A DNA stretch of 31,727 nt from a virus: positions 1-31,727 of the IMG/VR virus record IMGVR_UViG_3300032267_000413; one strand, given 5' to 3'. The position numbers and the translations under genes were made by a program. Positions 10,514 to 14,631 of this stretch are shown one piece after another; the first letter of the stretch is position 1, and each line of letters starts with the position of its first letter. The notes beneath the pieces are model-generated. The model saw nothing but the letters and a program-made list of their open reading frames with translations. It did no database searches and was not told where the DNA came from.

Positions 10514-10836
10514 CACGCCAACCTCCACGCCGTCGCGTACCGGCCACTCATCGCCTTGCGTGTCCCGGCCTCGACCACCAGGCCGCGCCTGACGAGTTCG
10601 ATCCGCCGTGGCCGTGCCGTACTGGGGTTCATCTGCAGCCCCGTGGCAATCTCCTCGTCTGTGGCACCGTGGTCACCGCGAGCCCGCAGGAAGGCGACCA
10701 CCGAACGCTGCAGGGTGTTAAGCCGTGAGCCCATAGCGTCGGCCGCAGCCACGCTCGTCACGCTCGACTGCACCGCCGGTGCTCGAGCAGGTGCCGCGAA
10801 CAGGGGGCCGGCGGATTCGATGCCGTAGTGGTTCAT
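10513..10836 (-). CDS. winged-helix DNA-binding protein
   Basis: This protein of about 107 residues has a disordered Ala/Ser-rich N-terminal third. A winged-helix follows from about residue 35: LNTLQRSVVAFLRARGDHGA, TDEEIATGLQMNPSTARPRR (recognition helix), IELVRRGLVVEAGTRKAMSG. The pattern is close to the phage helix-turn-helix proteins that precede replication genes. The ATG at 10836 is supported by GAGGTGG upstream and overlaps the stop of the 45-residue HTH gene as ATGA. A longer reading from a GTG at 11052 would cover that small gene and is rejected. Likely regulatory or replication-related. Confidence 0.72.
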   Translation of the reverse strand: MNHYGIESAGPLFAAPARAPAVQSSVTSVAAADAMGSRLNTLQRSVVAFLRARGDHGATDEEIATGLQMNPSTARPRRIELVRRGLVVEAGTRKAMSGRYATAWRLA

Positions 10837-10970
10837 GCCGCCACCTCTCTGGCGATCCGGTTGACCACTGACTTTGAGACGCCGAGCCGCAAGGCGACTT
10901 GCGTTTGGGTCAGTCCCTGCCGTAGAAGCTCCGCAATGCGAGTAGCGTCGGCTGGCTTTCCTGATGGCAT
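10833..10970 (-). CDS. 45-residue helix-turn-helix protein
   Basis: A very short but convincing gene. The ATG at 10970 has GGAGG six bases upstream, the ORF encodes 45 residues, and its stop overlaps the next start as ATGA. Almost the whole product is one helix-turn-helix: RIAELLRQGLTQTQVALRLG then VSKSVVNRIAREVAA, the type seen in HTH_38/resolvase-like DNA-binding segments. It is so small that it must dimerise or join a partner. The winged-helix protein encoded directly after it is the obvious candidate. It could recognise the palindromic operators in the control region, but nothing tests this. Confidence 0.75.
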   Translation of the reverse strand: MPSGKPADATRIAELLRQGLTQTQVALRLGVSKSVVNRIAREVAA

Positions 10971-11128: not shown

Positions 11129-11365
11129 TCAATCTCCTGTCCATCTCACGCCAAAGTCGCGGCATACTGGTGGTGGCGGGTCCAACTCACGCAACCGTGC
11201 CGACAACGCCCGCAACTGCAGCAAAAGCTCCGCGTTCTCTGGCGCGGTTCGCAGGTAGTCATCAATGGCGTACCGCAGCTGCTCGGCTGGGCCTTCGCCC
11301 CATTGATGACGCACCATCTCAATGAGCCGGTGCCGGTGGTCTTTGATCCACGCCGATGGGCTCAT
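11129..11365 (-). CDS. small helical protein encoded directly after recT
   Basis: 78 residues, Arg-rich and mostly helical: MSPSAWIKDHRHRLIEMVRH, GPAEQLRYAIDDYLRTAPEN, ELLLQLRALSARLREL, then DPPPPVCRDFGV. The ATG overlaps the recT stop as ATGA, so the two are co-translated. No family recognised. In many phages a small partner or an exonuclease follows the annealase gene; this product is too small to be a RecE-type exonuclease. After it comes a 158-base gap that holds only a 5-bp GCCCC/GGGGC hairpin (about 10990-11010). Confidence 0.6.
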   Translation of the reverse strand: MSPSAWIKDHRHRLIEMVRHQWGEGPAEQLRYAIDDYLRTAPENAELLLQLRALSARLRELDPPPPVCRDFGVRWTGD

Positions 11366-12213
11366 GCCGTCACCTCGTGCTCGGCGGCTTCGTGCTCGAA
11401 CGCCAGGCCCGTGTCATCGTCTGGCAGCAACTCGGCCTTGCCGATCATGAGCTCAACCAACTCGTGGTGTTGCTCCTCGGTGAACGTCCCTTCGTTGCGT
11501 CTCTTCTGAACGAGCGACCGCAACTTGTTGAGCTCGGCCACGTTCTTGGCCTGCTGCACCGCGTGCCGGGCCTTGGTCATCGGGTCATCCTTGCTCACGC
11601 TTAGCGTCAGTGCCGGTGCGGCTGGTCCGATTACCACGGGCTCTCTGGCCGGTTCTCTGGCCGGTTCCGCCTGCTGGTAGTCCTGGGCCTCCTCGGCCGT
11701 GACGAGGCCACGAAGAACGTCAGGGAAAGCATCACGCAGAGCGAAGCCCCTGGCACGCAGCTGCAACATCCGCTTGGGGTACTGCGTCCACGGACCGGTC
11801 TTGCCCCACAGGTTCGCTTTCTTGGCGTCGGCCACGCTGAATCGGGCCACCACATTGGCGTCCTTGCCCCGCCGGCTGGTCTGGCACACGGCAGTCATGC
11901 CATCGCCGTCGCCCTCGATCGCCTCATGAATGCCGTCGCAGACCGGGCTGGCCAGGCACAGGGCCAGGGCAGCGTCACCCCAGATGGTCGGCCTGCCGTT
12001 GATTACGGCGATGCTCTGGAGCGACTGCATAGGGGACAGGCCCACTTCGCTGCCGTGCTGGATGGCCAGCAGGCAACTCTCGGGCTTGCCCTGAAAGTCC
12101 TTCGGGGCGAAGGCCGACTTCGCCACCATGTTGGCGAACGACATCGCCTCGGCCATTGTTGCCAGCGCCAGCCCTCGGGTCGGCGTCGTGTTCGTGCTGA
12201 GTTCTGTGCTCAT
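11362..12213 (-). CDS. recT: RecT-family single-strand annealing protein
   Basis: This 283-residue protein shows the RecT core: SCLLAIQHGSEVGLSPMQSL, QSIAVINGRPTIWGDAALAL (about 65-84), then WTQYPKRMLQLRARGFALRD (about 142-160) and AFPDVLRGL. The C-terminal third is a linker with an EPAREPAREP repeat and a charged helical tail. RecT proteins bind single-stranded DNA and pair complementary strands in phage recombination. No partner exonuclease or SSB is visible. RusA downstream could resolve products. AAGGAA lies a few bases before the ATG, in a leader very similar to those of the 73-residue protein and dnaN. The 136-base upstream gap shows no clear promoter, so it is probably expressed from promoters at 12.6-12.7 kb. 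Confidence 0.88.
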   Translation of the reverse strand: MSTELSTNTTPTRGLALATMAEAMSFANMVAKSAFAPKDFQGKPESCLLAIQHGSEVGLSPMQSLQSIAVINGRPTIWGDAALALCLASPVCDGIHEAIEGDGDGMTAVCQTSRRGKDANVVARFSVADAKKANLWGKTGPWTQYPKRMLQLRARGFALRDAFPDVLRGLVTAEEAQDYQQAEPAREPAREPVVIGPAAPALTLSVSKDDPMTKARHAVQQAKNVAELNKLRSLVQKRRNEGTFTEEQHHELVELMIGKAELLPDDDTGLAFEHEAAEHEVTA

Positions 12214-12349: not shown

Positions 12350-12571
12350 TCAGTGCGTGATGTCGCTTACCGGTACGGCAACCCAACCGCCGCCCACGTC
12401 GAGCGTCATGCGGTTGCCCTCGATGAACTCGACTCGGCCTGACCACCTCTTGCCGGCGGTCATGCCAGACACGAAGTCGCCAGGGGCTGGCTGCTGTGCG
12501 GGCGGCATCGTGTGGTCAGCCATGCCGGCGATGGCTGCGAGGTACTCGTTTTCGTGAACGTCGTTCGTCAT
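12350..12571 (-). CDS. small beta-rich early protein
   Basis: 73 residues. The first 28 are polar and helical; the rest looks like a small beta-barrel: PGDFVSGMTAGKRWSGRVEF, IEGNRMTLDVGGGWVAVPVS. The pattern is KOW- or SH3-like by eye only, and no family is named. AGGA lies about seven bases before the ATG. It is the first gene after the two tandem leftward promoters at 12597 and 12680 and is followed by recT, so it is probably among the earliest products. It could bind nucleic acid or a host protein. Confidence 0.65.
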   Translation of the reverse strand: MTNDVHENEYLAAIAGMADHTMPPAQQPAPGDFVSGMTAGKRWSGRVEFIEGNRMTLDVGGGWVAVPVSDITH

Positions 12572-12596: not shown

Positions 12597-12624
12597 AGTG
12601 TACAGCCGTATAGTCCAGAGTCAA
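12597..12624 (-). promoter_or_regulatory. leftward promoter with TTGACT and TACACT boxes
   Basis: On the minus strand, TTGACT (12624-12619) and TACACT (12602-12597) are separated by 16 bases, 26 bases before the start of the 73-residue gene, with a Shine-Dalgarno sequence between. Box types and spacing match the three other leftward promoters nearby, but the spacer lacks the palindromic operator. It would drive the recT operon constitutively or under different control. Confidence 0.55.
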
Positions 12625-12679
12625 CCGGGGCAAACTAAAAATCGCAGTGATGATTGCCGGTACGGGTAATGTGGTGCAT

Positions 12680-12707
12680 AGCGTACCGATAGCGGTAATG
12701 TTGTCAA
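12680..12707 (-). promoter_or_regulatory. leftward promoter with palindromic operator in its spacer (copy A)
   Basis: On the minus strand, TTGACA (12707-12702) and TACGCT (12685-12680) stand 16 bases apart. Almost the whole spacer is the inverted repeat TACCGATAGCGGTA (plus-strand 12684-12697), which is the exact reverse complement of copy B. Repressor binding here would block both promoter boxes. A degenerate half-match lies at 12655-12668. It would feed the recT operon in tandem with the promoter at 12597. Confidence 0.6.
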
Positions 12708-12847
12708 CGGGACAAAATGCCGGCCACGCTGGCCAGCAGCTCGAGTAGGTCGTGAATGGCCCTGGTGGCTGGCGAGTCGGTGCCGAGCTCCTGGCCGAGG
12801 CGAACGAGAACGAGTGCTGGGAGCAGGTTGTCGATAGTGCGTTTCAT
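12704..12847 (-). CDS. 47-residue helical protein
   Basis: A short gene with an excellent AGGAGG six bases before its ATG at 12847. The product is 47 residues, mostly two helices: TIDNLLPALVLVRLGQELGT and TRAIHDLLELLASVAGILSR. The second helix is amphipathic. No family recognised. It follows the 81-residue gene across a 56-base gap that contains a 9-bp hairpin, so it may be controlled at the RNA level. Its stop overlaps the -35 box of promoter copy A. Small helical early proteins of this kind often bind host enzymes, but that is speculation here. Confidence 0.6.
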   Translation of the reverse strand: MKRTIDNLLPALVLVRLGQELGTDSPATRAIHDLLELLASVAGILSR

Positions 12848-12868
12848 GTTGGCCCTCCTTGACCAAGT

Positions 12869-12892
12869 CCCCGGTGGCGGATTCCACCGGGG
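12869..12892 (-). terminator. strong hairpin between the 81- and 47-residue genes
   Basis: CCCCGGTGG and CCACCGGGG form a perfect 9-bp stem with a 6-base loop, just after the 81-residue gene and about 20 bases before the 47-residue start. There is no U-run, so it is an atypical terminator. Attenuation, RNA processing or masking of the next ribosome binding site are alternatives. Confidence 0.45.
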
Positions 12893-12903
12893 CAGTTGTT
12901 GAG

Positions 12904-13149
12904 TTATGCGGCAAACCCAATTGCTTTCTTTTGGTATCCGGTCATCTTGCCTTTGAACCATGCTTGAACTTCGTAGGCAGTGCCGTACTTGTCGGCCTTG
13001 AATGCGGCCTTTGGAAACCAAGCGGTGCAATTTCCGGTTTTGAGTTGGACTGCCTTTTCTGTGGCCTTGACGACATCGACGCTGTTGCAGCTTGGGTCGA
13101 TTTGGCTCCAGGCAATGTTGGCAAATCCGTTGTCCCAGTTGAGGTTCAT
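12904..13149 (-). CDS. small protein of unknown function in the control region
   Basis: About 81 residues, Trp- and Lys-rich and probably beta-stranded: DNGFANIAWSQIDPSCNS, VDVVKATEKAVQLKTGNCTA, WFPKAAFKADKYGTAYEVQA. The 'TaWFPK' segment recalls small phage proteins with a 'W-x-PKS' motif, but I cannot name a family. The ATG at 13149 has AAGGA a little upstream; earlier in-frame ATGs lack such a site. It lies about 50 bases from promoter copy B and is the first gene that promoter would transcribe. It is somewhat more A/T rich than neighbours. Confidence 0.62.
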   Translation of the reverse strand: MNLNWDNGFANIAWSQIDPSCNSVDVVKATEKAVQLKTGNCTAWFPKAAFKADKYGTAYEVQAWFKGKMTGYQKKAIGFAA

Positions 13150-13200
13150 CGTTTCGTTCCTTGTTTCCATCCCGCGAGTCTCACTTGCTCGCATGCCACT

Positions 13201-13228
13201 AGTTTACCGCTATCGGTAAAGAAGTCAA
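13201..13228 (-). promoter_or_regulatory. leftward promoter with palindromic operator in its spacer (copy B)
   Basis: On the minus strand, TTGACT (13228-13223) and TAAACT (13206-13201) are 16 bases apart, and the spacer contains the palindrome TACCGCTATCGGTA (plus-strand 13205-13218). The layout is identical to copies A and C, including GTTGAC immediately outside. It is placed to transcribe the 81- and 47-residue genes. Confidence 0.6.
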
Positions 13229-13272
13229 CAACAGGTGAAAGATTTTTCTGGAACCTGCGGCAAAGCCGAGAA

Positions 13273-13539
13273 TCAGCGGGTTTTCCGCTTTTTACGCCGG
13301 GGCTTTGCGGGGCTTGGCTTGCTGGCTAGCTCTGCTTTACGGACGTTGGAGTGTGGGGCCAGTGAAGACCGTAAGGCACGGCAACCCTCAACGCTGACCA
13401 TCCAGGCCCGATCGTTCGCTTTCCAACCATCAAGCCGCTTTTCTCGCAGCCGCAGGCGAATCAAGCCGTCAGTGCAGCCGGCGATCCCGACCGCTTCCTC
13501 GACACTGCACCACTTGCCGTCAGGTGTCATCGTTACCAT
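13273..13539 (-). CDS. Xis/MerR-like DNA-binding protein, possibly from a leaderless mRNA
   Basis: 85-88 residues. The N-terminal 60 look like an excisionase/MerR-type winged helix (WCSVEEAVGIAGCTDGLIRL, then GWKANDRAWMVSVEGCRALR). A very basic tail follows (PAKPRRKKRKTR). It is transcribed away from the integrase across a 168-base divergent region, the usual place for an excisionase or a lysogeny switch protein. The predicted -10 box of promoter copy C ends seven bases before the ATG at 13539, so the mRNA may begin at that codon. The in-frame ATG at 13530 has GGAG ten bases upstream as a conventional alternative. It may be the factor that reads the nearby operators; no CI-type repressor is seen. 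Confidence 0.68.
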   Translation of the reverse strand: MVTMTPDGKWCSVEEAVGIAGCTDGLIRLRLREKRLDGWKANDRAWMVSVEGCRALRSSLAPHSNVRKAELASKPSPAKPRRKKRKTR

Positions 13540-13545
13540 GCTCCA

Positions 13546-13573
13546 ACTCTACCGCCAGCGGTAGGGAAGTCAA
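13546..13573 (-). promoter_or_regulatory. leftward promoter with palindromic operator in its spacer (copy C)
   Basis: On the minus strand, TTGACT (13573-13568) and TAGAGT (13551-13546) are 16 bases apart, with the palindrome TACCGCTGGCGGTA (plus-strand 13550-13563) in the spacer. The layout matches copies A and B. It should drive the Xis/MerR-like gene and lies about 140 bases from the integrase start. Confidence 0.6.
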
Positions 13574-13655
13574 CTTGCCCAACCTGCCATTGTCTCGCAT
13601 ACTCGAAACTCTGTACACTACTTCATGCCGATTTTTATAGCGGATGGGGTGTAGG

Positions 13656-13683
13656 TTGAACATTTGTACACCTATGCTAGGCT
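13656..13683 (+). promoter_or_regulatory. candidate integrase promoter
   Basis: TTGAAC (13656-13661) and TAGGCT (13678-13683) are 16 bases apart on the plus strand, ending 24 bases before the integrase ATG, with AAGGGAG between. The spacing equals that of the four leftward promoters. The spacer contains TGTACAC, which also occurs at 13612-13618 and, inverted, at 12598-12604. A second possible rightward promoter is TTGTCT/TACACT at 13590-13619. Confidence 0.42.
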
Positions 13684-13707
13684 TCGGCAAAAAGGGAGCC
13701 CGCAACG

Positions 13708-14631
13708 ATGACACTCAGAGAACTGCTGCACGACAGGATTGCCCCTCTCAAAGACCTTTCCGCCAGGAGCGTCGTCATGTACGACTCCAGCCTAGACCGG
13801 TTCCGCGACTTCCTCGGCCACGAGCCCGACATCGCGGACCTCGATGACCTAGTCCTGTCCAAGTTTCTTCGCTGGCGTTCTACGACGGTCCACGACGCCC
13901 GCCGAGGGATCATCAGCCCAGCCAGCCTAGCCAAAGATTCTGCCCACCTGCGGAGCCTCTGGACGTGGCTGGCGAAGAAGCGGTGGAAAAAGCCAGACGG
14001 CGAACTCCTCGAGTTCCCTGACTACGCCCGGCCTAGGGTGCCTCGGCCTCGGCCCTGTGCCTACACCGTGGAGGAGTTGCAGCAGCTGCTCGACGCCGGC
14101 CGCCACCGGCGCGGCTACATCAGCGGGGTGCCGGCGGCCTGGTACTGGCCCACCAAAATCGTGGCCATGTACCAGACGGGCGAGCGTATCGGTGCTGTGC
14201 TGGCGATCCGGTGGGGTGAGGTGGATCTGGACCGCCACTGCCTGACGTTCCTGGCTGCCACCCGCAAAGGGCACACAGAGACGATTACGCGGGCGATCTC
14301 GGCCGAACTGTGTGCCATGATGGCCCCGCAGCGACGGGCCGCAGACAGCCTCGTATGGCCTTGGCTAGAGGGACGGCAGCCCTTGAGCATCTACCCATCC
14401 CTTAAAGTGCTGTGCAAAACGGCTGGCGTTCCCTACCACCCGTTCCACAGCATCCGTAAAAGCACCGCCTCTTACCTCAAGAAGAAGGGCAAGTCAGCCA
14501 AGACCCAACTAGGCCACTCGTCCGAGGAGATGGCAGAGCAGCACTACTACGACGAACGGATTACGGGCACAGAGTCTGCCCTGGACTACCTGCCCCCGCT
14601 CGATCTCGGCGGGCCGGGGAAGCCAAGGTAG
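13708..14631 (+). CDS. int: tyrosine recombinase (phage integrase)
   Basis: This 307-residue protein is of typical phage-integrase length. An N-terminal core-binding domain (about 1-105) precedes the catalytic domain. Catalytic residues are all visible: R160 in YQTGERIGAVLAIRW, K187 in ATRKGH, H247 and R250 in FHSIRKSTA, H270 in LGHSS, and the nucleophile Y280 or Y281 in HYYDE. It catalyses site-specific recombination between attP and a host attB and marks the phage as temperate. GGGAG lies nine bases before the ATG. It is the only rightward gene and is divergent from the Xis-like gene. I could not identify attP; no tRNA-like core flanks it. Confidence 0.93.
   Translation: MTLRELLHDRIAPLKDLSARSVVMYDSSLDRFRDFLGHEPDIADLDDLVLSKFLRWRSTTVHDARRGIISPASLAKDSAHLRSLWTWLAKKRWKKPDGELLEFPDYARPRVPRPRPCAYTVEELQQLLDAGRHRRGYISGVPAAWYWPTKIVAMYQTGERIGAVLAIRWGEVDLDRHCLTFLAATRKGHTETITRAISAELCAMMAPQRRAADSLVWPWLEGRQPLSIYPSLKVLCKTAGVPYHPFHSIRKSTASYLKKKGKSAKTQLGHSSEEMAEQHYYDERITGTESALDYLPPLDLGGPGKPR

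Follow-up and report, generated by a model that had tools for sequence, protein, structure and literature searches.

A small excisionase-fold protein as the candidate reader of an operator repeated in three promoters of an uncultured phage

RESULTS

Gene and promoter layout of the locus

The window, by which we mean the whole stretch of 31,727 bases analyzed here, is an IMG/VR phage record with terminase, portal, capsid, tail, and recombination genes. Reading leftward from the tyrosine integrase gene, promoter C with a dyad is followed by the gene for an 88-aa protein, then promoter A with a dyad and a variable 81-aa gene (gene A), and further on promoter B with a dyad, promoter D without one, and lastly a 73-aa gene and recT (Table 1).

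Table 1. Features of the integrase-recT region and of one outlying reading frame in the window
Feature	Position	Strand	Remarks
Tyrosine integrase	13708..14631	+	divergent from 88-aa gene
Promoter C, TTGACT-16-TAGAGT, of 88-aa gene	13546..13573	-	ATG 6 nt past -10
Operator in promoter C, TACCGCCAGCGGTA	13550..13563	.	predicted from sequence
88-aa HTH_17/excisionase-like protein	13273..13539	-	proposed reader and autorepressor; recognition helix ~residues 24-32
Promoter A, TTGACT-16-TAAACT, of variable gene A	13201..13228	-	
Operator in promoter A, TACCGCTATCGGTA	13205..13218	.	predicted from sequence
GCGAG...CTCGC inverted repeat, start of gene A leader	13174..13192	-	by eye
Gene A, 81 aa	12904..13149	-	96 aa if from 13194; function unassigned
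Promoter B, TTGACA-16-TACGCT, upstream of recT operon	12680..12707	-	
Operator O1 in promoter B, TACCGATAGCGGTA	12684..12697	.	predicted from sequence
Second operator O2 of promoter B, TGCCGGTACGGGTA on +	12655..12668	.	degenerate; 29 bp from O1
Promoter D, TTGACT-16-TACACT	12597..12624	-	without dyad; spacer ATAC-GGCT-GTAC
73-aa gene	12350..12571	-	first in operon behind promoters B and D
RecT-like single-strand annealing protein	11362..12213	-	operon behind B and D
HTH_3-like 45-residue ORF (PF01381)	10833..10970		

The original prediction described four look-alike leftward promoters, three of them with the same palindrome in the spacer, and this description proved accurate. A search of both strands of the window for TTGAC-N17-TANNNT (TTGAC plus one base, a 16-base spacer, and TAnnnT) returned exactly four matches, all on the minus strand, compared to a mean of 0.17 in shuffled sequences, where four matches were reached in 0 of 100 cases. 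The window holds three exact copies of TACCG-N4-CGGTA, and 100 shuffles held none. Each copy occupies the 3' part of one promoter's spacer and extends into the TA of the -10 box, and the relations predicted between the copies are correct to the base, with those in promoters A and B being exact reverse complements and that in promoter C deviating in the centre alone. The palindrome is not scattered in coding DNA, there being no copy outside these promoter positions either in the window or in 24 related phage records. The sequence GTTGAC, which was said to be kept outside the repressed promoters, is present there but precedes promoter D as well, and is therefore no marker of "repressed" promoters. 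A second, degenerate operator at promoter B (O2) had been overlooked.

Gene A varies between phages and had no relative in 22 related records. By eye, however much the gene differs, the leader in front of it recurs in many relatives, with an inverted repeat of either GCGAG/CTCGC or GTCAGG/CCTGAC, and several of these leaders begin GGAGACGAAACGATG; it is possible that this leader is a conserved RNA element before a cargo slot. Also by eye, a conserved CCACCCC(A/G)TCCGCT-like block was seen between the integrase and HTH genes, at 13574-13707 in the window and in relatives. This block resembles an attP core and may be the 3' end of a tRNA; ARAGORN detected no tRNA in the window.

The dyads accompany the 88-aa protein among relatives

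The 88-aa protein has 33 viral relatives, and an exact dyad precedes the homologue's gene in 32 of them, with the 33rd (L032) carrying a dyad with one mismatch. Among 24 phage records with a homologue (7-44 kb, searched whole), 58 exact dyads were found, always in the same places, compared to 4 for the pattern read backwards in the same records. Three dyads were present in 16 of these records, two in 2, and one in 6, several of the records being fragments. The 88-aa protein is also the most conserved gene of these phages, at 68-87% identity in 22 of 22 records, compared to 38-77% for the integrase and a patchy occurrence of other genes. Its presence in all 22 is expected, since the records were picked by the 88-aa protein, but the high identity is not so explained. 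A viral scan for the promoter-dyad pattern itself yielded 26 contigs, 23 of which are also among the 88-aa relatives. A 24th (L099) has an integrase of 29% identity, a remote HTH_17 homologue, and two promoters that contain the dyad. The remaining contigs (L111 and L115) match the pattern with no detectable homologue of the 88-aa protein, and were set aside as probable chance matches.

The geometry of the sites is equally regular. In the window's family, O2 lies 29-31 bp from O1 in 14/14 recognised B promoters and has 0-1 mismatches at 8 compared positions; a control stretch taken 100 nt beyond has 3-4. The -10 box ends 6-7 nt before the ATG in 94/94 unique loci with a recognised promoter, a further 7 of the 101 unique loci having none; loci were counted as unique when they differed within the first 201 bases of the gene, which left 101 of 140. 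About 100 distinct relatives retain the layout with other half-sites.

The original prediction had left the reader of these sites unnamed. That place can now be given to the 88-residue protein, which was among its candidates, fits far better than anything else, and is most likely the reader. Its companion claim, that no CI-type repressor is visible, stands: in 17 phage records, PF00717 (S24 peptidase-like) was found in none and PF01381 (HTH_3) in one, solely as the window's own 45-residue ORF, and no CI- or LexA-type repressor gene of these two kinds is common to the records. This 45-residue ORF was ruled out as the reader because it is absent from all 22 related records.

The 88-aa protein belongs to an excisionase-type family

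The winged-helix family HTH_17 matches 40 of 53 family members, although not the window protein taken alone, and excisionase families of PHROGs match many members. Pukovnik Xis is the nearest solved structure in the PDB and the best match in both sequence and fold. The structure model of the 88-aa protein is modest (pLDDT 67), with a predicted recognition helix at residues 24-32. As is usual for the HTH_17/excisionase (Xis, RDF) family, the 88-aa gene is small and lies beside a tyrosine integrase. According to two reports (PMC7498355, PMC11963761), characterised Xis-family proteins bind direct repeats. This trait is absent from the window's family, where the operators are exact inverted repeats with an N4 centre. 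These family 1 inverted repeats misfit the binding of characterised RDFs, so that "Xis-family protein" describes a fold, with the excisionase role being putative. In addition, half-sites are not enriched between the integrase and operator C (4 compared to 6.0 expected, 2 compared to 12.0, and 16 compared to 21.2), and thus give no sign of att binding there.

The fold also raises the possibility of a MerR-like activator acting from the spacer, given that HTH_17 is MerR-related and that CadR and GlnR are among the weak fold matches of the 88-aa protein. However, MerR-activated promoters have spacers of 19-20 bp, whereas those found here are 16 bp, near the sigma-70 optimum, with -35 and -10 boxes near consensus, and we regard activation of this kind as very unlikely.

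Recognition helix and operator vary together

Integrase relatives with other HTH_17 proteins in the same place have promoter half-sites of TAACG, TGACG, TAGCG, or TTGCG, and the half-sites of one phage are common to its own several promoters. When the protein's own promoter was paired with each other promoter, the left half-sites had the same letters 2-3 in 53 of 74 pairs (permutation mean 25.1, p<=5e-5) and were discordant in the remaining 21. Agreement was also found among unique combinations (35/53; permutation mean 14.6, p<=5e-5), outside family 1 (21/39; mean 9.8, p<=5e-5), and within family 3 (7/17; mean 3.2, p 0.0095), for which the left-half register, like that for 17-base spacers, was fixed after inspecting those sites; within family 2, 12/20 pairs agree (mean 9.5, p 0.052). 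In these comparisons, by a rule fixed in advance of the counts (as was that for unique loci), A and B sites were retained only with a left half ending in CG, a filter that removed D-type promoters and left 75 sites, one of which was lost from the agreement test on account of an own promoter with a 17-base spacer. The A sites of family 3 have a clear left half and a poor right half. No site passed the filter at the F5 loci (L121, L122), and a viral scan with the F5 protein as query returned no relatives.

The association can be narrowed to one residue and one base. At promoters other than the protein's own, among 54 unique proteins, half-site base 3 is C in 21/21 of those with Arg32 and a base other than C in 33/33 of those with a non-Arg residue. 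Residue 32, at the end of the predicted recognition helix, gives the column with the highest mutual information (0.964, next 0.656), and it remains highest without family 1 (0.67, next 0.37), while the best integrase column reaches 0.28 of 0.97 in 50 of the 54 loci. The rule is looser at the own promoter, where, among 74 unique proteins, C occurs with Arg in 24/25 and with non-Arg in 11/49. When a tree was built without this helix end, both traits changed 5 times on the best tree; strongly supported branches force just 1 independent pair, indicating that kinship accounts for part of the association. Protein and DNA sites appear to have changed together across relatives.

These data bear on whether another protein might read the sites. 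It is conceivable that a different phage-encoded protein does so and that the 88-aa protein is merely a linked excisionase, as its gene occupies the usual xis position and its binding is predicted from sequence. Given that the 17 records have no second DNA-binding gene of the kinds searched for in common, and that the covariation of residue and base is specific to the recognition helix of the 88-aa protein, we consider this highly improbable.

A host regulator such as LexA is a further candidate, which would make the three promoters SOS or host promoters that the phage has acquired. The dyad has a length fitting for a LexA-like dimer, and TACCG-N10-CGGTA is present in lexA promoters from the family of one metagenome-assembled genome (MAG), G025. 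However, the spacing in these promoters is 10 and not 4, TTGAC-N5-TACCGNTANCGGTA occurs in 0/294 genomes of the phylum of a second MAG (G026), and no dyad was seen over the 70 bases upstream of 20 lexA genes from the class of G026. Nor is the dyad enriched in G025 (2 compared to 7 in the control) or G026 (1 compared to 12). Moreover, one relative (L038) has an integrase 98% identical to that of the window, yet carries a different HTH_17 protein and different sites, which argues against a host reader. On the genomes covered here, there is, in our estimation, hardly any chance that a host regulator reads the sites.

A first genome scan found nothing, and a second found integrase relatives in a MAG labelled Proteobacteria and in a Phycisphaerales MAG. 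The latter contained two more integrase-bearing contigs, and a different genome from the same class yielded one match; these contigs are <=21 kb. Phycisphaerae are accordingly a weak lead as to the host. These distant MAG-borne integrase members were left out of the counts. More distant cassettes of integrase and HTH genes were also observed in a Phycisphaerales MAG (L262, L267), and in the first of these CGTTACG-CCGC-CGTAACG lies close to a TTGACA promoter and may represent another operator type.

A GWWC-N4-GWWC element was observed in 51/98 integrase-side intergenic regions (integrase-HTH). Separately, lexA genes in the family of G025 (L225, L228-L240) have upstream boxes like ATACCGAACAAATGAACGGTAT, with GWWC-N4-GWWC present in 13/14. 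The GWWC-type element resembles a LexA box of the Gram-positive type, and it may be a mark of SOS control or of integrase arm sites.

DISCUSSION

We consider it very probable that a dimer of the 88-aa HTH_17 protein binds TACCG-N4-CGGTA and represses its own gene, the variable gene A, and the recT operon, with promoter D under other control. The sequences themselves show the sites, where these lie, and the covariation of protein and DNA. Binding would presumably be by a head-to-head dimer that lies over the spacer and -10 box of promoters A, B, and C, and, since the dyads lie in the 3' part of the spacer and overlap the -10, the bound dimer should exclude RNA polymerase and thereby repress transcription. 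At promoter C, this would result in negative autoregulation of the 88-aa gene, whose mRNA is probably leaderless given the distance of 6-7 nt from the -10 to the ATG. The second operator at promoter B, three helical turns from O1, suggests cooperative and tighter control of the recT operon.

Promoter D, which stands behind B and lacks the dyad, would be controlled otherwise. The proposal that one protein serves three promoters while a fourth has no operator is supported by these data, but the claim that the fourth escapes holds only by half, as D spacers hold another element. Specifically, D-type promoters of relatives have a conserved GWWC-N4-GTAC in the spacer in 34 of 52 cases, a count to be taken as a lead only since the filter partly preselects the motif. 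This other element suggests that D may answer to a different regulator.

That the 88-aa protein is the immunity repressor of the phage is a further and weaker proposition. An immunity circuit is plausible, and a brake on early lytic expression is equally compatible with the sequence; because repression of an early operon could also serve lytic timing, the circuit does not in itself establish immunity. There is close to an even chance that the 88-aa protein reads the sites while acting mainly as an excisionase or early lytic regulator, similar to Cox, Apl, or RdfS, with immunity residing elsewhere. Family membership and gene position favour such a role, and the recT operon would still be transcribed from promoter D, which lies behind B. 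Moreover, Apl, Cox, XisF4, and RdfS join excision with regulation (PMC7498355, PMC7379572, PMC11963761). Against this role stand the lack of half-site enrichment between the integrase and operator C and, as regards immunity elsewhere, the finding of no other repressor gene among the 17 records searched for PF00717 and PF01381.

Alternatively, we would tentatively propose, at somewhat less than even probability, that CI has been replaced by an autoregulated excisionase-fold dimer in a large uncultured family of temperate phages, with immunity groups defined by residue 32 and base 3 and a possible coupling of immunity to excision. As residue 32 and operator base 3 change together, related phages would then fall into immunity groups that are readable from sequence, and if so, who is immune to whom would be predictable from residue 32 and the five-base half-site. 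Many environmental temperate phages have no recognisable repressor, which blocks the prediction of lysogeny and immunity from metagenomes. Here, a putative repressor, its operators, and a one-residue/one-base specificity rule were obtained together from sequence, for a class of protein normally annotated just as "excisionase".

A search of open-licence papers found no description of this circuit, but several known systems share parts of it. The coliphage 186 protein Apl and the Cox proteins of P2-like phages are small excisionase-type proteins of temperate phages that also repress early promoters, but they act at direct repeats one helical turn apart and are accompanied by a separate immunity repressor (PMC7498355). 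In the present phages, by contrast, three promoters carry dyads, and the search of 17 records for a further repressor gene was negative. In Pseudomonas phage Pf4, the excisionase XisF4 controls the lysis-lysogeny switch, but it differs in activating phage replication as well as its own expression and in counteracting a separate repressor, Pf4r (PMC7379572). RdfS covers the -35 and -10 of its own promoter and represses it (PMC11963761). RdfS of Mesorhizobium ICEs, BldC, and Pukovnik Xis (HTH_17) have the same fold as the 88-aa protein and form head-to-tail oligomers with weak or direct-repeat specificity, in contrast with the sharp inverted-repeat sites and the residue-base rule of the 88-aa family. 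In lambdoid phages, with their CI/Cro operators, and in mycobacteriophages, with their stoperators, one phage protein serves several operators, and specificity differs between related phages. The logic of these systems is alike, but the fold of the 88-aa protein is unrelated, there is no S24 domain, and the sites are far fewer than stoperators. The 88-aa protein would act in the manner of a Cro/CI-type repressor while being of a different family.
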